Source: Spirochaetota bacterium (GTDB lineage: Bacteria > Spirochaetota > Spirochaetia > Treponematales > UBA12059). Taken from it: 44,159 bases of DNA. The notes beneath the pieces were generated by a model. That model saw only the letters and a program-made list of their open reading frames with translations, made no database searches and was not told where the DNA came from. Positions 29,295-38,527 of the stretch are shown here, piece after piece (the first letter of the stretch is position 1; every line of letters starts with the position of its first letter). The DNA lies in NCBI GenBank assembly GCA_003247225.1, contig QKAK01000003.1, positions 1 to 44,159 on the forward strand, given 5' to 3'. The translations under genes were made by a program, and so were the position numbers.

Positions 29295-30587
29295 CTAGGC
29301 GTCGCCGTCATCGAGGTCCCGGTACTCGATGCCGAACTCGTAGTCCCAGTCATCGAAGTACAGGTTGCCCCCGCCCCACTCGACCTCACCGCGCTGGAAG
29401 TCCGTCGGCTCGGAACGCTCGAAGCGCTTCGGAGGGTAGAGCTCGCGGCCGTAGTCGTCGTTGACCACGGCCCTGAACGCGTCGATGCCGCCGAGGTAGA
29501 ACCAGCGCAGCTCCTCGTCGTCGGTATCCCTGAAGCCGCGCGACGGATCGGCAGGCAGCCAGCCGTACGGCTCGACGTGGAACATAGCCCAGTCGTGCAG
29601 GTTCATCTTGCCGGGCAGCAGGGTCAGGCCCGACTGCCAGCGCGCCGGGAGGCCGGCCGCGCGGCACAGCGCTATGAACAGCATGGCCTGGACGCCGCAG
29701 TCGCCGCGTCCCTCGCGCAGGCAATACTCGGACAGGCTCGGTATCGTCGAGTATTCCGGCGTTGCCGTATAGGTCACGTTCCGGTCGAACCACTCGAAGA
29801 TCAGCCTGGCCTTGAGGTACGGGTTCGCCTCGGTTCCGACGATGGACGCCGCGAGGCTCCGGATCTCCGGGCTCAGGCTCAGGTGCGGCGGGCGCTCGGC
29901 CGTATACTCGCGGTACAGCGCCGTCGACGTATCCGTGGGCCCGATTCGACCCGGGTCGACGAGCGGGGCGTAGTCGCGGCTCGTGAACTCGTAGCTCGCC
30001 GAGAAGACCGTCGGAAGCCCGGCCGGTGACGCCGGCCGCTCCAGGTACAGCGTCCGCTGCGGGGCTTCCTCGGGCGCGGCCGACGCTCCGGCCGGGTCGG
30101 TCGCGATCACGGCCAGGTCGCGGTTCTGCCCGCCGACGCGCGGCAGCGGCAGCCAGCAGCGAATCGTCTCGCCCTCCGGCGCGGCGCCCGGGCGGACGGT
30201 CAGCCTGTAGTCGAGCCTGATCCCGATCGGCCGCACGTAGCCGGGGCCCGTCGCCTTGGCCGCCTCGACGGCCCGCCTCATACGGCCGAGCAGGTCGAAC
30301 TCCAGGCCGGATACCCCGGTGTCCCCCGCCGGCTTGGCGCCCGAAAAGGCGGCCCTGCGATCGCGGGCCTCGGGGCAGAGCCGCCACAGGTTGACGACGG
30401 CCCGGTTGAAGTAGCGCCGCTCGCCGTCTATCGTCCGCCACTCGAGCGCGCCCGATTCTGACCAGCGCCGCAGCTCGTCGGGCGTGACGTCGGGCAGCTC
30501 GGCGCGCAGCCTCGCCTCGACCTCGGCCTCGGGCAGGCGGTAATCGTGCCGTAAGCGCCTGCGCAGCTCGTCGTCGTCGATGGCCAT
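29295..30587 (-). CDS. Transglutaminase-like domain protein
   Basis: A 430-residue protein. The N-terminal part (about 1-60) is a charged helical domain with a small DNA-binding-like look (DELRRWSESGALEWRTIDGERRYF). Residues about 110-250 form beta-rich domains. A transglutaminase-like/cysteine protease-like core follows (residues about 265-390) with Cys in REGRGDCGVQAMLFIALCRAAGLPA, His in NLHDWAMFHVEPYGW and Asp in LPADPSRGF, so the catalytic triad is intact. It lies 2 bp after the upstream stop; its ribosome binding region overlaps the upstream coding end. No signal peptide is seen. The substrate is unknown. Confidence 0.82.
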   Translation of the reverse strand: MAIDDDELRRRLRHDYRLPEAEVEARLRAELPDVTPDELRRWSESGALEWRTIDGERRYFNRAVVNLWRLCPEARDRRAAFSGAKPAGDTGVSGLEFDLLGRMRRAVEAAKATGPGYVRPIGIRLDYRLTVRPGAAPEGETIRCWLPLPRVGGQNRDLAVIATDPAGASAAPEEAPQRTLYLERPASPAGLPTVFSASYEFTSRDYAPLVDPGRIGPTDTSTALYREYTAERPPHLSLSPEIRSLAASIVGTEANPYLKARLIFEWFDRNVTYTATPEYSTIPSLSEYCLREGRGDCGVQAMLFIALCRAAGLPARWQSGLTLLPGKMNLHDWAMFHVEPYGWLPADPSRGFRDTDDEELRWFYLGGIDAFRAVVNDDYGRELYPPKRFERSEPTDFQRGEVEWGGGNLYFDDWDYEFGIEYRDLDDGDA

Positions 30588-30589
30588 AC

Positions 30590-31171
30590 CTAGTTCCCCG
30601 AACCTTGCGGAGAGGTCGGCCTGTCGTACAGCTCGATGGCGCGTTCCCCTGGCGACGGGCTCTTCCACCCGCCGATGACGATCTCGGCTACGTTCCTGAC
30701 CCGCTCGGCGCCGCGCGATTTCGCGTCGCCCCGCTCCGCGTCGACCGCCCCTCCGTCGCCGGGGCCCCTCTTGTAGGCCTCGAGCACCGCGCGGGCGTCG
30801 TCGTAGTCGTCCTCGAGCACGTTGAGGAGGGCGTTGTTGAAGCTGAATACCGGTATGCCGGTGCGCAGCTTGGACATGTTCTCGAACTCGAAGTAGTACG
30901 GGATCTGCTCCGACTGGAACAGCGACTTGATGAACATGATGTCGTACTGGTTATAGACGCTGGCTATCCTGACGGCGCGCCTGCCCGCGGATACCTCGTC
31001 GAGGAACGCGCGCTCCATCTCGACGCCCTCTTCGGGAGCCGCGGCGTCGCCGTCCGCGGGCGTTCCCGCTTTCGCCTCCGCGTCGCGCTTCTTCTGTCGT
31101 TCGCGGTAATACCCGATGAGCGCCATCCCGAAGACGACCGCCATCGCGGCCGCTATGATCTTCTGGTTCAA
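30590..31171 (-). CDS. Membrane-anchored DUF2007-like protein
   Basis: A 193-residue protein. TTG start at 31169-31171 overlaps the upstream stop as TTGA, with GGGAGGA as Shine-Dalgarno. The N-terminal helix (IIAAAMAVVFGMALIGYYRERQ) anchors it. Residues about 65-135 resemble the DUF2007 putative signal-transducing fold (SVYNQYDIMFIKSLFQSEQI, then NALLNVLEDDYDDARAVLEAY). Its last codons and stop (bases 30592-30611) match the terminal repeat of the mobile elements at 16 of 19 positions, so the C terminus PQGSGN may come from an insertion. Function unknown. Confidence 0.7.
   Translation of the reverse strand: MNQKIIAAAMAVVFGMALIGYYRERQKKRDAEAKAGTPADGDAAAPEEGVEMERAFLDEVSAGRRAVRIASVYNQYDIMFIKSLFQSEQIPYYFEFENMSKLRTGIPVFSFNNALLNVLEDDYDDARAVLEAYKRGPGDGGAVDAERGDAKSRGAERVRNVAEIVIGGWKSPSPGERAIELYDRPTSPQGSGN
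30592..30610. repeat. Solitary copy of the mobile-element terminal repeat
   Basis: TAGTTCCCCGAACCTTGCG matches both the MITE ends and the IS end at 16 of 19 positions. No inverted partner is found within the next 120 bp. It encodes the last residues and the stop codon of the DUF2007-like gene on the minus strand. Confidence 0.5.
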
Positions 31172-32103
31172 AGTCGTTCCTCCCCACGGGCCGGAGCCGT
31201 CGATGCGTCGGCGGGATAATCCTTAAGCCGCAGCTCGGTCAGCAGCTCGCGGCTCAGTATCGGCGGTTCCAGCAGCTCGTCGGCGTGCTCCACGAAGCGC
31301 TGGACCAGGTCGAGCGCGCGGCCCATGTACACGCCGTCGGCGATGCGGTCGTCGAAGGTATAGCGCAGCCTGAGCATCTTGCGCGTCACCGGGCGGAAGC
31401 CCTCGTCGAGGCGGCGCTCCTCCCGCACCTTGCCCATCGCCAGGAACACCGGGCAGTTGCCGCGCTCGAACAGGTGATGGTACGGCGCGTCCAGCCCGAA
31501 GGAGCCGACGTTGGTCAGGAAGACGCTCGACCACATCGGGTCCGAGTCGGTCATCGAGCGGGGCATCAGGTTGCGCTGGTCGAGCCAGTCCATGCCGCGC
31601 ACGAGCAGCCTGACGAGGGGATCGGGCAGCCTCATGATGGTCGAGACGACGGCCTCGTTCTCGGCGCCGTCGTCCGACACGGCGCGCTTGACCGCGGCCC
31701 GCACCTTCCTCGCGGTGGTCGCGAGCGTCTCGTAGGGGCTGAAGGAGATCTTGACGTTCACCTCCTGGCCGTCGTCGCTGATCTCCTTCTTGGCCACGAA
31801 GTTGACGAGTATCTGGTTCCGCTGCCAGAAACGGTAGCCGGAGATGAAGCGGTTGAGCTTGGGCCGCATCGCGACCGCGCGCGCCGCCGCGGCGATCACC
31901 ACGCCGAACAGCGTCAGGATCTCGCGCTCCTTGATCAGCTCGCGGTTCACTTCCTTGATGAGGTCCATCGTCTCGGTGACGTCGAGGTCCTGCTCGTAGT
32001 TGATCACCGACCCGCCCTTGCTCGGCATCAGGAAGGGCATGAAGCGGGTGAAGTCCGGCAGGTCCCGTATCAGCGTCGCGTCCGATCTCGTCTTCTTGAG
32101 CAT
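31168..32103 (-). CDS. 2-oxoacid dehydrogenase acyltransferase-like protein lacking catalytic His
   Basis: A 311-residue protein like the C-terminal catalytic domain of E2 acyltransferases (chloramphenicol-acetyltransferase fold), with no lipoyl or E1/E3-binding domain. Matching stretches include VVIAAAARAVAMRPKLNRFISG and TNVGSFGLDAPYHHLF. The active-site motif DHRxxDG is replaced by FDDRIADGVYMGRALD, so the catalytic His is Asp. Enzyme activity as an E2 is therefore doubtful. I start it at 32103 (SD AAAGGA) rather than further upstream. It is the first gene of a three-gene operon joined by TTGA overlap and 2-bp spacing. Confidence 0.78.
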   Translation of the reverse strand: MLKKTRSDATLIRDLPDFTRFMPFLMPSKGGSVINYEQDLDVTETMDLIKEVNRELIKEREILTLFGVVIAAAARAVAMRPKLNRFISGYRFWQRNQILVNFVAKKEISDDGQEVNVKISFSPYETLATTARKVRAAVKRAVSDDGAENEAVVSTIMRLPDPLVRLLVRGMDWLDQRNLMPRSMTDSDPMWSSVFLTNVGSFGLDAPYHHLFERGNCPVFLAMGKVREERRLDEGFRPVTRKMLRLRYTFDDRIADGVYMGRALDLVQRFVEHADELLEPPILSRELLTELRLKDYPADASTAPARGEERL

Positions 32104-32120
32104 GGCGTCCTTTCGCTGGT

Positions 32121-32137
32121 GGTACGAAGCTTGTACC
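32121..32137. repeat. GTACGAAGCTTGTAC palindrome in the leader of the acyltransferase-like gene
   Basis: GGTACGAAGCTTGTACC is a near-perfect palindrome 18 bp before the ATG. Its 15-bp core recurs at 37602-37616. The inner CGAAGCTTGT is also the inner part of the MITE end. Confidence 0.55.
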
Positions 32138-32275
32138 GCGCTCGCCGCGGCGAACCGTGAACGGCCGCAGAATCGGGCGTTCACGTCGCGTCGCGCTCCC
32201 GGGAGCGCAGCCGCGGCCCGCCCGAAAGGCTCCGTAGCGCCTTACGATCATAGCACGCCCGGTTCGCCCTCGTCC

Positions 32276-33847
32276 CTACCGGAAGGGCGGGACCGGGACC
32301 GATACCGATAGCTGGAAGCCCTCGCCCTTGGCCGTCGAGACGCGCAGGCTGCCGCCGAACCCCGCGATCCTGTCGCGCATCATGCGTATCCCGTGGCCGG
32401 GGACGAAGCCGTCAGCCCCGTCGCCGTCGTCGACCACGGTGAGCAGCACCGATGACGGCCTGAAGACGGCGCCGACGAAGACGGATCGGGCGCCCGAGTG
32501 CTTGATGGCGTTGGCGAACGACTCCTGGCAGCAGCGCTCGAGCGCGCGCGCGAGCGGCGCGGGGACGGGCCGCTCCTCGCCGAGCGTCGATACCTCGACG
32601 CTCAGGTCGGTATCCTGGTAGAGGCCGACGATGTCGTCGAGCAGCCGCGATAGGTACTCGCGCTCCGGCGGGGCGCTCGTCCCGTCCGGGGCCGAGGGCC
32701 TGACGGCGAGCTCCAGGTCCCGCTCGGCGGCGGCGGCCTGTTCCCCGGCCTGGGCGACGAGCCTGCGCGCCTTGCCCGGGTCCGAGGCGAGGCTCGACGC
32801 GGCCGCCCTCAGGAGCAGGATGACGAGGGTGACCGAATGGCCGAGCAGGTCGTGCAGGTCCATCCGCGCCCGGTTCGCGGCCTCTACCTCGTACAGGGCG
32901 TCCCTCCTGGCGTTCCTTTCCCGTAGGCGCGCGTTGAGCGCCTCGAGAGCCGCGTTCCGCGCGTCGTACTCCCGCTCGAGCCGCCGTATCGTCCCGAAGT
33001 CGGCGTACAGCTCGATCGAGTAGCCGCGCTTCCTGAACGCCTTGTAGAGGCCGAGGGACCCGGCGCCCTCGGCGGGGAGGGTCGAGTACGCCGTCCGGCC
33101 CGAAGGGGACTTGACGACGACCGGGTCCGGCAGCCCTCGGATCAGCTCCTCGGGCGGGAACGGCAGCACGCCGAGGAAGCCGTGCCTGAACGCCGCCGTC
33201 CCGAAGAGCCCGAGCGATAGGCTCATAAGGATCGGCGTCACGTCGAAGAGCGGCTGGATGACGCCGGCGATATAGAGCGCGTTGACGGCGAGCGGCAGGG
33301 CCGCCGAGGCGGCTATCATCGCGTCGGCGGTCCTGACCGAGCGGCCCCGGCCGAAGCCGCGGGCCGCCATGACGATGCCGGCGGCTACCAGGCCGTAGGT
33401 ATAGGCGGAGTGGGCGTAGAACGCCGGGCCGAAGGTGTCGCCGTAGAAGTCGTAGGTCGCGTAGAATAGGTGGTGGGCCGGATTGGTCGCCGCGACTGCG
33501 AAGAAGGCCGCCCCGCCGGCGTAGAGGGCCCACGCGACGCGGAGCGGGCGCCGCCTCGCGTAGCGGTACGCGAAATGGAAGAACGACGGGCCGAGCGCCG
33601 ACACGCCCGCGTACTGGACGACGATCCAGGCCCAGCGGAGGCCCTCCGTCGGCGATACCGTCTTCAGTATCTTGGCCACGATCCAGAGCGCCAGGCACGC
33701 CTGCAGCTGGACGTAGCGGTAGAGCGTCGCGTCCTTGCCGGCCCTGGAGAAGAAGGCGAGGTTCGTCCGTATCACGGCGGCCAGCGCGACGAGGTGGGCG
33801 AGCTCGATCCAGAAGATCTCGCGCGCCAGGTCGGGACCCATGGGCAT
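32276..33847 (-). CDS. 7TM sensor histidine kinase (HisKA_3 / NarX-type)
   Basis: A 523-residue kinase. Residues about 1-230 have seven or eight hydrophobic helices resembling the N-terminal 7TM region of histidine kinases (WIVVQYAGVSALGPSFFHFAYRY is typical). A short PAS-like region and coiled coil lead to the HisKA_3 phosphoacceptor box RMDLHDLLGHSVTLVILLL. The HATPase has N box ESFANAIKHSGA, then DDGDGADGFVPGHGIRMMRDRIAGFGG. It follows the NarL-type regulator by 3 bp and should be its cognate kinase. The ligand is unknown. Confidence 0.92.
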   Translation of the reverse strand: MPMGPDLAREIFWIELAHLVALAAVIRTNLAFFSRAGKDATLYRYVQLQACLALWIVAKILKTVSPTEGLRWAWIVVQYAGVSALGPSFFHFAYRYARRRPLRVAWALYAGGAAFFAVAATNPAHHLFYATYDFYGDTFGPAFYAHSAYTYGLVAAGIVMAARGFGRGRSVRTADAMIAASAALPLAVNALYIAGVIQPLFDVTPILMSLSLGLFGTAAFRHGFLGVLPFPPEELIRGLPDPVVVKSPSGRTAYSTLPAEGAGSLGLYKAFRKRGYSIELYADFGTIRRLEREYDARNAALEALNARLRERNARRDALYEVEAANRARMDLHDLLGHSVTLVILLLRAAASSLASDPGKARRLVAQAGEQAAAAERDLELAVRPSAPDGTSAPPEREYLSRLLDDIVGLYQDTDLSVEVSTLGEERPVPAPLARALERCCQESFANAIKHSGARSVFVGAVFRPSSVLLTVVDDGDGADGFVPGHGIRMMRDRIAGFGGSLRVSTAKGEGFQLSVSVPVPPFR

Positions 33848-33850
33848 CGG

Positions 33851-34501
33851 CTAGACGAGCCCCTTCTTGATGGCCGTCACGGCGATCTGCGTCCTGGCCT
33901 GCAGGCCCATCTTCGAGAGTATCGACGAGACCCGGTTCTTGACGGTGCCCTCGGAGCAGCGGTCGGCCTCGGCTATCTCCTTGTTGCTCATGCCCTCGGC
34001 TATGTACGCGACGACGCGCAGGTCGGTCTCCGTCAGCCCGTAGGGCTCGTCCCGGGAGTCGTGCGCCGAGGCTGGACGGAGGCGCTCGGCGTCGGCGATG
34101 AAGGGGGCGACGCAGGCGTGGTACACGAAGAGCCCGGCGGCCGCGCTCCGTATCGCGAGGACGAACACCGCCGGCTCGACGTCCTTGAGCACGAAGCCGC
34201 GCACGCCGAGCCTGAGGGCCGCCCTGATGGCGGCCGGCTCCTCGAAGGTCGTCAGCAGGAGCACCGGCACCTCGGGGGCCGACGCCGCGAGCCGCTCGGC
34301 GGCGTCGAGCCCGGAGAGCCCCGGCATGCGTATATCGAAGACGGCCACGTCCGGCCGCAGCGCCTCGACGGCGCGCGCGGCCTCGGCCCCGTCGGCGCAG
34401 GTCGTCGCCACCTCGATGTCTGGCTCCGCCTGCAGGAGCCCCGAGAGCGACGAGAGTATGAGCGGATGGTCCTCCGCGAGCACTATGCGTATGGGCCTCA
34501 A
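33851..34501 (-). CDS. NarL/FixJ-type response regulator
   Basis: A 216-residue regulator. Receiver domain IRIVLAEDHPLILSSLSGLL, phospho-Asp in VAVFDIRMPGLSG, Lys in VLKDVEP; then a LuxR-type HTH LTETDLRVVAYIAEGMSNKEIAEADRCSEGTVKNRVSSIL. It starts with TTG at 34499-34501, which overlaps the stop of the upstream PAS protein (TTGA). It is the middle gene of a three-gene signalling operon and a candidate for binding the inverted repeat at 35490-35517. Confidence 0.93.
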   Translation of the reverse strand: MRPIRIVLAEDHPLILSSLSGLLQAEPDIEVATTCADGAEAARAVEALRPDVAVFDIRMPGLSGLDAAERLAASAPEVPVLLLTTFEEPAAIRAALRLGVRGFVLKDVEPAVFVLAIRSAAAGLFVYHACVAPFIADAERLRPASAHDSRDEPYGLTETDLRVVAYIAEGMSNKEIAEADRCSEGTVKNRVSSILSKMGLQARTQIAVTAIKKGLV

Positions 34502-35463
34502 TCGTTCCTCCGTCGGTAGCGCATCCCGTGCACCGTCTCGCGTATCCTGTCCATGGCCTCCCTCGATTCGACGACCGCGGCCTCCAGCGACGACTCGGTC
34601 GGCTCGCCGGGCCCTTCGAGGCTCCCGAGCCGCGCCTTAACGCGCCTCAGGTACTCGCGTACCCGCTCGGTCACCGCCTCGCGCTCCCTGAGCAGGCCCG
34701 CCTCGGATTCGAGGGACCGCGCGAGGGCGGCCTCGTCGACGAGCCTGCGGTTCCTGTTGAGGAGACGGGTGTTCTGGGACTCGAGGGCCTCGAGGAGCGC
34801 GTACTCGTCGGTCACGTCGCAGAGGTAGAAGACGCAGGCGCCCGGCGCCCCGTCCCCGGGCGCGCCCCTCGGCGACGCCGCCGAGCGCCAGTACCGGTAC
34901 CGCCTGCCGCCGAGCGCGAGCTCGCCCTCCGGGTACTCCCCGCGCCCGACCCGCGCGAGGGCGTCGCGCAGCTCGGGAGCGTAGCCCGCGGCGTCGAGCC
35001 TGGCTACGAGGTCGTCGAGCGAGTCTCCGAGGAAGGGGCCGTGGCCGCCGAAGTCGAGCTCGCCCCACGAGACGATATCGTAGCGCGAGTCCATGACGAT
35101 GACGTCGTCCCGTAGCGCGTCGAGTATCCAGCGAGCCATGCGCTCGGTCGGGAGCGTCGCCCCGGTCGGCCCGCCGGCGGCGGCCCGGGCGGCGGCCCGT
35201 ATCGCCGTCGCGGCCAGGGCGAGCGCGCCGCAGGCGGCCCCGACGGCCGCGGCGGCGCGGAACGCCGCCGCCCACCATGGGTAGGGGCAGGTGGAGGAGA
35301 GCGGATAGAGCGCGGAGGCGGTCAGGAGGGCGCCGATCCCGATCCGTAGCGGAGCCCTCGAGCGCCGCTCGGCTGTTTCCCAGGCCGCCAGGCAGAGCGC
35401 CGCGACCAGCGATACGGCGATGCCGTACCGGGCGTAGGTCGCGTACGAGTAATAAGTGATCAT
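34498..35463 (-). CDS. Membrane PAS protein with degenerate HisKA_3 domain (pseudo-kinase)
   Basis: A 321-residue protein. Three or so membrane helices fill residues about 1-95. A PAS-like domain follows (ALRDDVIVMDSRYDIVSWGELDF to residue about 215), then a coiled coil and a C-terminal helical pair: LREREAVTERVREYLRRVKARL and SREAMDRIRETVHGMRYRR. That pair matches the HisKA_3 dimerisation domain (end motif VRxxVHGLRP), but the HDxxGH phosphoacceptor segment is missing and no ATPase domain follows. It could pair with the complete 7TM kinase encoded downstream and modulate it. A -10 box sits 8 bp before the ATG, so the mRNA may be leaderless. Confidence 0.7.
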   Translation of the reverse strand: MITYYSYATYARYGIAVSLVAALCLAAWETAERRSRAPLRIGIGALLTASALYPLSSTCPYPWWAAAFRAAAAVGAACGALALAATAIRAAARAAAGGPTGATLPTERMARWILDALRDDVIVMDSRYDIVSWGELDFGGHGPFLGDSLDDLVARLDAAGYAPELRDALARVGRGEYPEGELALGGRRYRYWRSAASPRGAPGDGAPGACVFYLCDVTDEYALLEALESQNTRLLNRNRRLVDEAALARSLESEAGLLREREAVTERVREYLRRVKARLGSLEGPGEPTESSLEAAVVESREAMDRIRETVHGMRYRRRND

Positions 35464-35471
35464 CCGCTTTT

Positions 35472-35517
35472 ATATTACCATGCCGATGACTTTTGTCATG
35501 CCCCGCTATGACGAAAG
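35472..35517 (-). promoter_or_regulatory. Promoter and operator-like inverted repeat of the PAS/NarL/7TM-kinase operon
   Basis: On the minus strand ATGACA (35494-35499) and TAATAT (35472-35477) are 16 bp apart. The inverted repeat CTTTTGTCAT (35490-35499) / ATGACGAAAG (35508-35517), 9 of 10 matching, overlaps the -35. A nearer dyad ATGAC-TTTT-GTCAT also occurs. Position and symmetry fit a dimeric regulator such as the NarL-type protein encoded in the operon. A T run follows on the plus strand, so a terminator reading is also possible. Confidence 0.6.
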
Positions 35518-35599
35518 CCTTTATTTTTTTATCCATCCGGTACTATCGGCCGAAGGCCCCTACGTGGAGAATGCCCGCGCATAATCGCAAGGAGGTCTG

Positions 35600-36832
35600 A
35601 TGTTCAACAAACGTTGCCGCCTCGCCGCGCTCGCTGGCCTAGCCTGCGTCGCCCGGCTCGCGGCCGATGGAACCGGCGGCGACCTCGTCCCTGCATGGGG
35701 CAGCATGTACGCCGCGGGCAATACGACGCTCTCCGGCCAGGTAGCCGTCGAGAGCGACGGGGGCGCGCTCGTGCTCTCCGCGGCGCCGTCGGTAGAATTC
35801 ATAGTCTGGAAACCCGTCATGGCCGGGATCGCCCCGTTGGACCTCGGCGTCCAGGCGATGGGCCGCGTCGCCGTCCCCCTCCGCTACGCCGGCTTCCAGC
35901 TCGGGCTCGGCGGCGGCGGCAGCGTGCACTTCGGGCTCCGCGGGCTCGAGACGCCCGTCTCCGGGTACCTCGACCGAGTCGACCTGTTCGCCCGCTTCGG
36001 GCTCGGCTTCGCCGCCACTACGAGCGACGGCCCGGGCCTGATCGGCTATAGCTCGTCGGGCTTCAACTACTTCGTCGACGACCGGCTCTTCATCGGCCTG
36101 GCGTACACGCAGTGGGGCTATTACGGCGGGGTGTCCCTGCAGGGCGGGCTCCGCCTCGGCAGGGGCTCGTCCGTCTCAGGCATGGGCGGCGTCTGGGACG
36201 CCGGCGCGCTGGCCATAGGCGCCGCCGCCGAGACGGTCTTCGTGACGCGCTTCTACGCGTACTACTTCACCTCGTTCTACACGGGCGGCTACTACTTCCC
36301 GGCCCCGTACCGCGTCGGCGACTCGACCGTGTACCGCGTGCGCGACCGGGACTCCGGCGACTCGTTCACCGTCGAGCGCGCCTTGCTCTCCGAGGAGGCC
36401 GACGGCTCGCGATGGTGGCGGCTCGAGTTCAGGCAGGGCGACGAGAGCGTCCTGTACGAGTTCAGGATGAGGGACGACACGCGGGTCGCCGAGATACTCT
36501 ACAGCGAGAACGGCGGGCCGACGGTCCGCGTCGTGCCGACCAGGACCGACATGGCCGCCTACTACGAGGGCGCTACGGTGTACGACGGCGCCGAGGACGG
36601 CCGCTCCAAGAAGGAGACCGTGCGGGTCGGCGCCGGCAGGTTCGACGCGAGGCGCGTCTCGAGGCGCGTCGTCGCGGACGACGGTTCCGTCGGCGACTTC
36701 GCTTGGTGGCTATCCGACTCGGTGCCCGGGGGGCTCGTGAAGTACGAGGCCGAGGAGGAGGACGACTCCATGGAGCTGACCCTGGAGAGGGTCTCGACCG
36801 GCGCGGCCTTCAGGCTGAGGAGCGCGAAGTGA
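35600..36832 (+). CDS. Exported protein, probable outer-membrane beta-barrel
   Basis: A 410-residue protein with a signal-peptide-like start (MFNKRCRLAALAGLACVARLAADG). The body is rich in alternating Tyr/Phe/Gly/Val strands (FQLGLGGGGSVHFGLRG, FARFGLGFAATTSDG, FYAYYFTSFYTGGYYF), as in spirochaetal outer-membrane barrels. The C-terminal part (about 240-400) looks like a soluble beta domain (VYRVRDRDSGDSFTVERALL). Excellent Shine-Dalgarno AAGGAGGT at 35589-35596. It is translationally coupled to the next gene by a GTGA overlap. Family not identified. It is divergent from the pseudo-kinase signalling operon, which may control it. Confidence 0.75.
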   Translation: MFNKRCRLAALAGLACVARLAADGTGGDLVPAWGSMYAAGNTTLSGQVAVESDGGALVLSAAPSVEFIVWKPVMAGIAPLDLGVQAMGRVAVPLRYAGFQLGLGGGGSVHFGLRGLETPVSGYLDRVDLFARFGLGFAATTSDGPGLIGYSSSGFNYFVDDRLFIGLAYTQWGYYGGVSLQGGLRLGRGSSVSGMGGVWDAGALAIGAAAETVFVTRFYAYYFTSFYTGGYYFPAPYRVGDSTVYRVRDRDSGDSFTVERALLSEEADGSRWWRLEFRQGDESVLYEFRMRDDTRVAEILYSENGGPTVRVVPTRTDMAAYYEGATVYDGAEDGRSKKETVRVGAGRFDARRVSRRVVADDGSVGDFAWWLSDSVPGGLVKYEAEEEDDSMELTLERVSTGAAFRLRSAK

Positions 36833-37494
36833 GGACGACGAGGATCATAGCCGCCTGCGCGGCGATCGCGCTCTGCCAGGCCGCCTACGGGGCTGACGCC
36901 AAGTCGAACGCGGTCAGCCTCGACCCGATAGCCGTCCTGTTCAACCTGTACTCCGGATCGTACGAGCGCGCGCTCGGCGAGTCCCTCTCGGCGAAGCTGT
37001 CTGTCGCCTATTCGCCGAACTTCCTCTGGCTCTCCGACCTCTCGTACTTCGACGCGACCGTCGAGGGCCGCTTCTACTTCGGGGCCGCGCTGCGCGACCT
37101 GCTCGGCGACGCGGATCCCGGCGAGCGGATACGCGGCCGCCTCATGACGCCCGGCATCGTCGGTCCCTACGCGGCCGCCTTCGTCGGCTGCCTCGGCGCC
37201 TCGGCGGACGACTGGACGGCCGCGGACGCGGGCGGGTCGTATACCTTCGACGCCGACGCCTTCGGGCTCGGCGCGGGAGCCGGCGTCGGCCTCAAGTACG
37301 CGCTCTCGGACGGCGGGCTCGTCTTCTTCGCCGAGCCCTTCGTCGGGGCCCGCTTCTACGCCCTCGTCGGCGGCGATAACGGCTGGCGCTACGTCGACTC
37401 GTCCGGCGACGCCATCCCGAAGCCCGAGGGCTTCGAGGACGGCTTCAGCCGGAGCGGGCTCTACTTCGGCGTGAACGTCGGCCTGGCGTTCTGA
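36829..37494 (+). CDS. Exported protein, probable outer-membrane beta-barrel
   Basis: A 221-residue protein starting with GTG at 36829-36831; this overlaps the upstream TGA (GTGA). The signal peptide is RTTRIIAACAAIALCQAAYGADA. The rest has short amphipathic strands (FNLYSGSYERAL, LSAKLSVAYSPNFLWL, GLYFGVNVGLAF at the very C terminus), and ends in Phe as many outer-membrane barrels do. No named family recognised. A long GC-rich hairpin follows its stop. Probably made with the preceding protein. Confidence 0.75.
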   Translation: MRTTRIIAACAAIALCQAAYGADAKSNAVSLDPIAVLFNLYSGSYERALGESLSAKLSVAYSPNFLWLSDLSYFDATVEGRFYFGAALRDLLGDADPGERIRGRLMTPGIVGPYAAAFVGCLGASADDWTAADAGGSYTFDADAFGLGAGAGVGLKYALSDGGLVFFAEPFVGARFYALVGGDNGWRYVDSSGDAIPKPEGFEDGFSRSGLYFGVNVGLAF

Positions 37495-37514
37495 CCCCGT
37501 ACCCGATCGATACG

Positions 37515-37556
37515 GGCGGCCTCCGGGAGGGCCTTGTCCCTTCCCGGAAGGCCGCC
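37515..37556. terminator. Hairpin after the envelope-protein operon
   Basis: GGCGGCCTCCGGGA (37515-37528) pairs with TCCCGG-A-AGGCCGCC (37542-37556) with one bulged A, a 14-bp stem with a 13-nt loop. Only TTCC follows on the plus strand, so it is a weak rho-independent candidate. Confidence 0.5.
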
Positions 37557-37601
37557 TTCCTATCCCCGCGGATCGCAGTCGCCGGCGAGGCTACGCTAGT
37601 A

Positions 37602-37616
37602 GTACGAAGCTTGTAC
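37602..37616. repeat. GTACGAAGCTTGTAC palindrome, second copy
   Basis: Identical 15-bp core to that at 32122-32136. It lies 11 bp beyond the 3' end of the minus-strand gene at 37628. CTAGTA precedes it, which recalls the first bases of the mobile-element end (TAGT). Confidence 0.5.
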
Positions 37617-37627
37617 TGCCGCGGCGG

Positions 37628-38527
37628 CTAGCGCCCCGCCGGCCGATCCGACGCGTCGAGTATGGCGCGTAGCTTGAACGCGTTCATGACGCTGGCGCGG
37701 CTCGAGCCGAAGTATCGTTTATTGATGGAGAAATCGGCGCTCGAGCCTTCATCGGCCAGGCGGCCGCGGAGGTCGACCGTGAAGCGGTCGCCTGAATCGC
37801 CGACGCGTATCGCCAAGTCTATCTCGACGGGATGATCGCGGTACGAGACCGAGAAACCGCCGTCCCGCTCGGACGAGAACGAGGGTAGCGGCGCGCGCGC
37901 GTTAGGGGCCGCGCCCGGCGTCGGGCGGAGCGCGTCGTTCAGGATCGACGCGGCCTTGAAGTACGCTTCCGGATTGACCGCTTGGCCGTCGCCCGACGCG
38001 AGCGTGTCCATGAAGGCCTTCAGGCTGAGCTTATGCAGATCGTCGTCGTATTCCTTCGCCGCCTTGGCGGTCTCCTTCTTGACGTCGACCGGCTTGGCCG
38101 GCGGGTCGAAGAACTTCGAGACGGAGAAGAAGCGGTCGACCTGGTCGCGCGACATCGCCACCTGGTTCGGGCCTGACTGGACTATGGACTCGACCGCCTC
38201 GGCGACCGAATGCGTGCGGCTCCGGTCGATTACCACCAGCTTCTCGATCTTCTTCATCTCGGCGGCGATGAGCCGATCGATCCGCTTGATCGTGCCCGCT
38301 ATGGCCGCCTCGACCTCGCGCGCGTTGAACGAGTTGACCTTGGAGGCCTTGAGCTTCTCCATGGAGACGAAGATGTCGTGCGATATGGCTTCCGCCGTCT
38401 TGAAGAGATCGCTCTTGTCGGCGATCGACAGCGAGATGCTATTCTTAACGTAGGCCAGGTAGATCAGGTACGATTTGACCCGGTCGTCGAACGCGACGTG
38501 GGCCGGCTTCTTGCGCTTGCCGAACAT
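37628..38527 (-). CDS. Hypothetical protein, 299 residues
   Basis: I do not recognise the family. The product starts FGKRKKPAHVAFDDRVKSYL and is largely helical to residue about 205, with no signal peptide or membrane segment. It includes a region of heptad-like Lys/Glu/Leu (VEAAIAGTIKRIDRLIAAEMKKIEKL) that may be coiled coil. Residues about 215-290 become beta-rich (DGGFSVSYRDHPVEIDLAIRV). The start at 38527 is preceded by AAGGAGCGGTCC on its strand, a usable Shine-Dalgarno. It is probably a cytoplasmic protein. Codon use is like its neighbours. Confidence 0.65.
   Translation of the reverse strand: MFGKRKKPAHVAFDDRVKSYLIYLAYVKNSISLSIADKSDLFKTAEAISHDIFVSMEKLKASKVNSFNAREVEAAIAGTIKRIDRLIAAEMKKIEKLVVIDRSRTHSVAEAVESIVQSGPNQVAMSRDQVDRFFSVSKFFDPPAKPVDVKKETAKAAKEYDDDLHKLSLKAFMDTLASGDGQAVNPEAYFKAASILNDALRPTPGAAPNARAPLPSFSSERDGGFSVSYRDHPVEIDLAIRVGDSGDRFTVDLRGRLADEGSSADFSINKRYFGSSRASVMNAFKLRAILDASDRPAGR

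Follow-up and report, generated by a model that had tools for sequence, protein, structure and literature searches.

Organization of the three-gene locus

The window analyzed here, a 44,159-nucleotide stretch of contig QKAK01000003.1 from a Spirochaetota bacterium (NCBI assembly GCA_003247225.1), carries a cassette of three reverse-strand genes that encode, in order, a membrane-bound PAS pseudo-histidine kinase (hereafter the partner), a NarL/FixJ-type response regulator and a seven-transmembrane (7TM) HisKA_3 histidine kinase (Table 1). As argued below, the three genes probably encode an asymmetric two-component system in which the partner and the kinase function as a heterodimer. The regulator and kinase genes are separated by 3 bp. 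The regulator combines a receiver with a GerE helix-turn-helix domain, as expected of the NarL/FixJ type (Pfam: Response_reg, 1.4e-23; GerE, 2.5e-13). The kinase possesses a 7TM domain (HisKA_7TM, 3.8e-32), an H-box (HisKA_3, 28.4 bits against a cut-off of 24) and N/G motifs, with the H, N, D/G and G motifs invariant across its family, while HATPase_c scores 25.1 bits, slightly under the cut-off of 26.4. As this one chain holds both the His and the ATPase, the kinase is not one half of a split histidine kinase. An Rfam scan of window positions 31000-38000 returned no match.

Table 1. Positions of the three genes, their functional elements and the adjacent divergent gene in the window.
Feature	Position	Strand	Basis or remark
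Partner, membrane PAS pseudo-histidine kinase, 321 aa	34498..35463	-	Three transmembrane (TM)-like helices, PAS, signalling helix, HisKA_3-type hairpin
PAS domain of partner, residues about 105-216	34816..35151	-	AlphaFold2 strands and helices; family profile; PAS structures, Z up to 8.4
Signalling helix continuing into pseudo-DHp alpha-1, residues 218-282	34618..34812	-	AlphaFold2; in register with kinase linker
Thr265, phospho-acceptor His position (PAS-end Asp + 49)	34669..34671	-	hhalign; DesK His188 by structural offset
Pseudo-DHp alpha-2, residues 290-312	34528..34596	-	AlphaFold2; DesK alignment
Arg308, invariant in 20/20 partners, equivalent to DesK Arg235 by sequence profile	34540..34542	-	DesK profile alignment; excerpt of PMC5231405
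TTGA overlap of partner stop codon and regulator start codon	34498..34501	-	Open reading frame (ORF) positions
NarL/FixJ-type response regulator, intact, TTG start	33851..34501	-	Pfam; Lys-Asp motif
7TM HisKA_3 histidine kinase, 523 aa, catalytic core intact	32276..33847	-	Pfam; AlphaFold2
Stub PAS of kinase, residues about 238-283	32999..33136	-	AlphaFold2 DSSP: four strands, PAS helices of normal length missing
His332 of kinase, phospho-acceptor (HDLLGHS)	32852..32854	-	H invariant in 20/20 module kinases
Glu379 of kinase, position of alpha-2 docking Arg (DesK Arg235)	32711..32713	-	Motif-based alignment
Perfect 14-bp palindrome ATGACTTTTGTCAT, candidate regulator-binding site	35486..35499	.	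Same place and identical in G007 and G003
Divergent gene, 410 aa, candidate regulated target	35600..36832	+	ORF list; same neighbour in G007

The partner is a PAS protein with a catalytically dead DHp hairpin

The partner matched no Pfam family at E ≤ 5 and its sole NCBIfam match (E 0.28) is meaningless, so both its PAS domain and its HisKA_3-like end had to be established by other means. An AlphaFold2 model (mean predicted local distance difference test score of 80) displays three N-terminal helices and a PAS fold, followed by a long helix (218-282), a turn and a second helix (290-312). The partner family profile matches WalK PAS structures (E 7.8e-6) and, weakly, DesK (0.11). A profile of the C-terminal part matches DesK at E about 3e-4, a level at which two designed helical bundles score equally well or better. 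In a structural comparison with VIA-align, DesK 154-243 falls on residues 231-318 of the model (Z 7.0, root-mean-square deviation 3.3, 86 residues aligned), with a Z under the tool's safe level for helical folds, as helical bundles reach such values by arrangement alone. Comparison by hhalign of the linker and dimerization and histidine phosphotransfer (DHp) region of 20 partners with that of 20 kinases gave E 4.8e-6 (score 35.4, 104 columns), and none of 200 column shuffles that preserved the heptad phase reached 35.4 (maximum 14.6, mean 9.4, standard deviation 1.6). The hhalign match with its shuffle control, the DesK profile, the modelled hairpin and the structural alignment together support a two-helix DHp of the HisKA_3 type. 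The Pfam HisKA_3 model recovered one of 12 partners at E 0.063 and none of 19 at E ≤ 0.01.

The H-box His is absent from all 20 partners, which carry T, Q, D, L, M, E, S, N or R at its position. Pfam detects no HATPase_c in the partners, whose chains end 10-23 residues past the alpha-2 Arg (14 in the window's partner). Positions -1, +3, +7 and +14 of alpha-1, counted from the His position, are mostly hydrophobic; the catalytic or regulator-facing positions of alpha-1 are all scrambled, and Leu241 and Arg308 are invariant. One MAFFT alignment with a four-residue gap placed the His position at Arg269; this was rejected in favour of Thr265, because the ungapped reading fits better with hhalign, the DesK offset and the symmetry of the hairpin. 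Judged from sequence and linkage, the partner belongs to a two-component network and has the fold of a kinase but no catalytic function, and so qualifies as a pseudo-histidine kinase. An earlier note on this DNA had described the operon layout (TTGA overlap, 3-bp gap, NarL-type regulator, intact 7TM HisKA_3 kinase), with which ORF positions and Pfam agree; it had also ascribed to the first protein a PAS domain and a HisKA_3-like C terminus without HDxxGH or ATPase, and the comparisons above bear this out.

The trio is conserved in two phyla

Twenty partners and 20 kinases were collected from 16 Spirochaetota and four Bacillota loci, the latter from Petrocella, Petroclostridium, Fusibacter and Thermoclostridium. 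Wherever the contig extended far enough, the partner and regulator genes lay upstream of the kinase gene, or, in the Bacillota, convergent with it. The close relatives of the window are Spirochaetota metagenome-assembled genomes, e.g. HGW-Spirochaetae-3. The trio is present in four of the eight genomes of the window's own genus, and within-genus relatives of the partner share 63% (G007) and 52% (G003) identity (G, C and L numbers are our handles for genomes, contigs and loci). Beyond the genus, relatives were reached only through kinase-family profiles; single-sequence searches with the partner of genome contigs and viral contigs returned nothing. The kinase alignment A2 led to 11 loci among collected genomes of named species, and with the kinase profile A5 a full-length or long kinase of this module came up in 12 of the 394 genomes of the class. 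A strong partner match was likewise present in 12 of 394, 11 of them common to both lists; in the two exceptions, both at contig ends, G510 showed just the partner and G472 just the kinase. With the window's proteins as reference, identity falls to about 11-16% among partners and to 25% among module kinases.

Used alone, the partner profile hit 213 of the 394 class genomes at E ≤ 0.01, mostly in long frames whose similarity is confined to the PAS or the DHp part. All five loci of this kind that were examined (L178-L182) proved to be ordinary kinases or unrelated proteins, and we therefore counted only hits at E ≤ 1e-49 plus one partner truncated by a contig end (G421:C112, E 2e-16). A 522-aa frame in G429 (E 5e-16) lies outside the count, and the G305 hit (E 1.9e-5) is an ordinary full kinase. 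Three loci were dropped before counting: L084 (Ruminiclostridium), which is rearranged and whose kinase match stops at residue 181; G472:C7, where a contig end leaves a partial kinase; and G510, where only a partner is seen, again at a contig end. The longer G472 kinase, whose upstream region is cut, is among the 20 kinases in place of the cut kinase of G543, and a 132-aa remnant at a contig end (G421b) is among the 20 partners. The G408 partner measures 333 aa (239 aa in its first, truncated locus), which leaves the C-terminal counts unaffected.

In the same neighbourhood scan (up to about 3.5 kb each side), the partner was found beside none of 15 ordinary HisKA_3 kinases, which match the module kinase only over the DHp and ATPase part and do have a regulator nearby, versus 17 of 17 module neighbourhoods, a figure that is partly circular because the profile was built from those loci. 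Conservation of the three-gene linkage, a check named in the earlier note, holds at 20 loci, and we regard it as highly likely that the trio is conserved and that its PAS partner carries a pseudo-DHp. Loss of the His and ATPase together with identities as low as 11-16% could instead mark the first gene as the decaying remnant of a kinase gene. This seems to us highly improbable, since the open frame has been maintained in two phyla with its linkage and its two invariant residues intact, and since partner and kinase distances correlate at 0.96 over 13 loci, although co-inheritance alone would give the same correlation.

Some loci carry further genes. In G444 and G421 the regulator and kinase genes are separated by an extra gene (L127:3688-4644 and L130:1064-1984); in G444 this gene matches PF03781, the formylglycine-generating-enzyme family (7e-43), and its G421 counterpart is similar by eye. 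The G444 partner has about seven TM-like windows. Upstream of the kinase, but on the other strand, three of the four Bacillota loci have a small DUF1508 gene by Pfam (L080:1700-2071, L081:4412-4870, L083:1120-1536), with a look-alike that has no Pfam match in the fourth (L082:4463-4858); a functional link to the module is possible.

Reciprocal losses and a shared register point to a heterodimer

Recurrence of the trio in distant bacteria suggests pairing between the half-kinase and the real kinase, and three features point to a heterodimer: reciprocal loss of the phospho-acceptor His and a docking Arg, a shared helical register, and reduction of the kinase PAS domain. The His is present in 20 of 20 module kinases and none of 20 partners. 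The alpha-2 docking Arg displays the reverse pattern, being found in 20 of 20 partners ([IV]R..[VI]) and one of 20 module kinases, where the position, assigned via the motif GL..L[EDK] and least certain for the window's own kinase, is Glu (7), Asp (5), Lys (5), Gln (1), Ser (1) or Arg (1), i.e. acidic in 12 of 20. Ordinary HisKA_3 kinases have Arg at His+47 in 15 of 15 cases; seven further ones have Arg in five (one read by eye) and Lys in two. All 14 module regulators examined conserve a Lys-Asp motif, presumably the same pair as in DesR. The equivalent residue of DesK, Arg235 (His188+47 on the DesK sequence), forms a salt bridge with the regulator (PMC5231405; statements cited by identifier, here and below, are drawn from excerpts of those papers). 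In DesK it would act from the second protomer. With the His in the kinase and the Arg in the partner, kinase alpha-1 and partner alpha-2' would therefore make up one full docking site, and the opposite face of such a heterodimer would hold neither residue. More tentatively, the two proteins may complete each other's regulator site by reciprocal loss and form an obligate heterodimer, the only combination with one productive site, an extension for which we would put the odds somewhat below even; the Bacillota versions, in which the kinase keeps a full PAS and Lys or Arg, would then represent a less committed state.

The invariant partner Arg, which in DesK touches the regulator, is also what would be expected if the partner formed homodimers and acted on the regulator alone, either as a decoy or as a phosphatase, and HisKA_3 phosphatase action does not need the phospho-His (PMC12632262). 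We consider this unlikely: the partner residues equivalent to the regulator-facing positions of DesK (+5, +8 and +12 from the His) are near random (entropy 3.5, 3.2 and 3.0 bits), and of alpha-1 only the hydrophobic core is kept. As +5 is the position of the phosphatase Gln, a phosphatase role for the partner was rejected.

The distance from the PAS-end Asp (or its equivalent, set by eye) to the phospho-His is exactly 49 residues in 20 of 20 kinases, and 19 of 20 partners share this register by length. Mean hydropathy profiles of partners and kinases correlate best at lag 0 (r 0.64; 0.78 over alpha-1; 0.57 for eight clade representatives). The input domains appear to be shared out as well: 54-72 residues separate the 7TM domain from the PAS-end Asp in the 16 Spirochaetota kinases, compared with 104-106 in the four Bacillota kinases, and the partner PAS is complete (AlphaFold2, PAS structure matches) where the Spirochaetota kinases have a stub. 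Accessory proteins that act on kinases without sharing their DHp are known, and kinase homodimers would be complete but for the docking Arg, so the partner might touch an ordinary kinase homodimer through the membrane or the PAS/coiled-coil region only and tune it allosterically. Such tuning would leave unexplained both the DHp hairpin core with its alpha-2 Arg in 20 of 20 partners and the loss of the docking Arg from the kinase, and we give it a low probability.

Several observations weigh against a heterodimer. The physical interaction between kinase and partner is something we infer, and equal linker length and register could be a relic of common ancestry. The G543 partner linker is off by two residues (the residue there is Gln), the best lag of individual pairs is 0 in 12 of 18 and differs in the window's own pair, G003, G005, G447, G459 and G485a, and the span from His position to Arg is 35-47 residues in partners compared with 41-48 in kinases, leaving the partner hairpin shorter in many loci. 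A gapless structural reading (VIA-align) sets DesK Arg235 opposite partner residue 312 rather than 308. The docking position is Lys in five kinases and Arg in one, including all four from Bacillota with their full PAS, and the 15 ordinary kinases come mostly from one related subfamily.

Taking both sides together, we favour the heterodimer and the asymmetric two-component system that it implies at a probability of roughly 0.68. The kinase would contribute sensing through its conserved 7TM domain as well as the ATPase and the phospho-acceptor His; the partner would add its own membrane segment, a full PAS and the catalytically dead HisKA_3 hairpin. Most likely the two jointly form a single DHp bundle of four helices, in which the signalling helices, 49 residues in each protein, are in register, and the productive docking site for the regulator would consist of kinase alpha-1 with its His and partner alpha-2 with Arg308. 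Given such a shared bundle and docking site, the PAS signal would gate phosphorylation by the 7TM kinase. The earlier note had proposed a heterodimer that brings in a PAS input; the proposal gains the register, the stub PAS and the reciprocal loss as supporting signs, while the heterodimer itself, like the direction of PAS control, the docking and the operator, is what we infer.

A palindrome in the divergent promoter region

The cassette and the divergent gene are 136 bp apart, and this spacer contains ATGACTTTTGTCAT. Three related genomes have one exact copy each, always between cassette and divergent gene. Allowing up to one mismatch, a scan of four genomes recovered the three exact copies plus a further site in G003, with a single match for a backwards control pattern; the palindrome was absent by the same scan from G005, which has a distant cassette. 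Judged by its sequence and placement, the palindrome is likely the operator of the regulator. The phosphorylated regulator probably binds there and would control its own operon and the divergent gene, whose 410-aa product has no Pfam match. The extra G003 site (one mismatch; L186, contig 25, 19718-19731) lies about 110 bp from the start of a 141-aa minus-strand ORF (L186:967-1392).

Downstream of the trio, the same strand encodes a protein with PF00198 (2-oxoacid dehydrogenase acyltransferase catalytic domain) and a transglutaminase-like protein (31168-32184 and 29295-30668). The genes that follow the trio in G003 are different.

Relation to known kinase systems

Pseudo-histidine kinases that work through a true kinase are already known (RocA, DivL, RetS, FasBC). 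DivL and RetS retain the kinase core, whereas the partner described here has no ATPase and the losses are reciprocal between the subunits. Split kinases such as CheA3/CheA4 divide kinase functions over two proteins, whereas here one subunit stays a complete kinase with respect to His and ATPase. The DivL-CckA and RetS-GacS pairs resemble the proposed system in that inactive or inhibitory kinase homologues control a true kinase by direct contact (PMC12189002).

In group A Streptococcus, FasB and FasC, two membrane proteins resembling sensor kinases, heterodimerize in two-hybrid assays and serve one regulator, FasA; they too form a three-component set in one operon, with the ATPase of one subunit dispensable and roles shared out (PMC12675982). 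Both are drawn in the excerpt with DHp and HATPase domains and with the phosphorylated His in FasC (PMC12675982), whereas here one subunit lacks the His and the ATPase alike and includes a PAS. RocA, from the same organism, is a membrane pseudokinase that binds and stimulates the true kinase CovS and whose DHp His is dispensable, but it retains that His and a degenerate catalytic domain (PMC7028121). A frameshifted ChrS of Corynebacterium glutamicum, truncated behind its DHp, changes the signal that passes through a second kinase and the regulator; native ChrS and HrrS heterodimerize, but the pseudokinase is laboratory-evolved with its His present, and the two-hybrid assay in the excerpt saw no heterodimer of the truncated form (PMC9491836). 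DesK shares the HisKA_3 DHp fold, but as a homodimer it carries His188 and Arg235 on one chain (PMC5231405), whereas here the two residues lie on two proteins.

We found no description of this trio in the open-access collection searched, most subscription journals lying outside that scope. HisKA_3 domains with a missing His are rare in Pfam-based surveys (0.3%, 56/16,025; PMC12632262), but the partners are nearly invisible to Pfam and such surveys would therefore miss them. If the favoured interpretation is correct, the trio would represent a sensor that combines two inputs in nature. Its kinase, conserved and asymmetric by nature, would join these two inputs to a single regulator site and let one dissect subunit roles hidden in symmetric homodimers.

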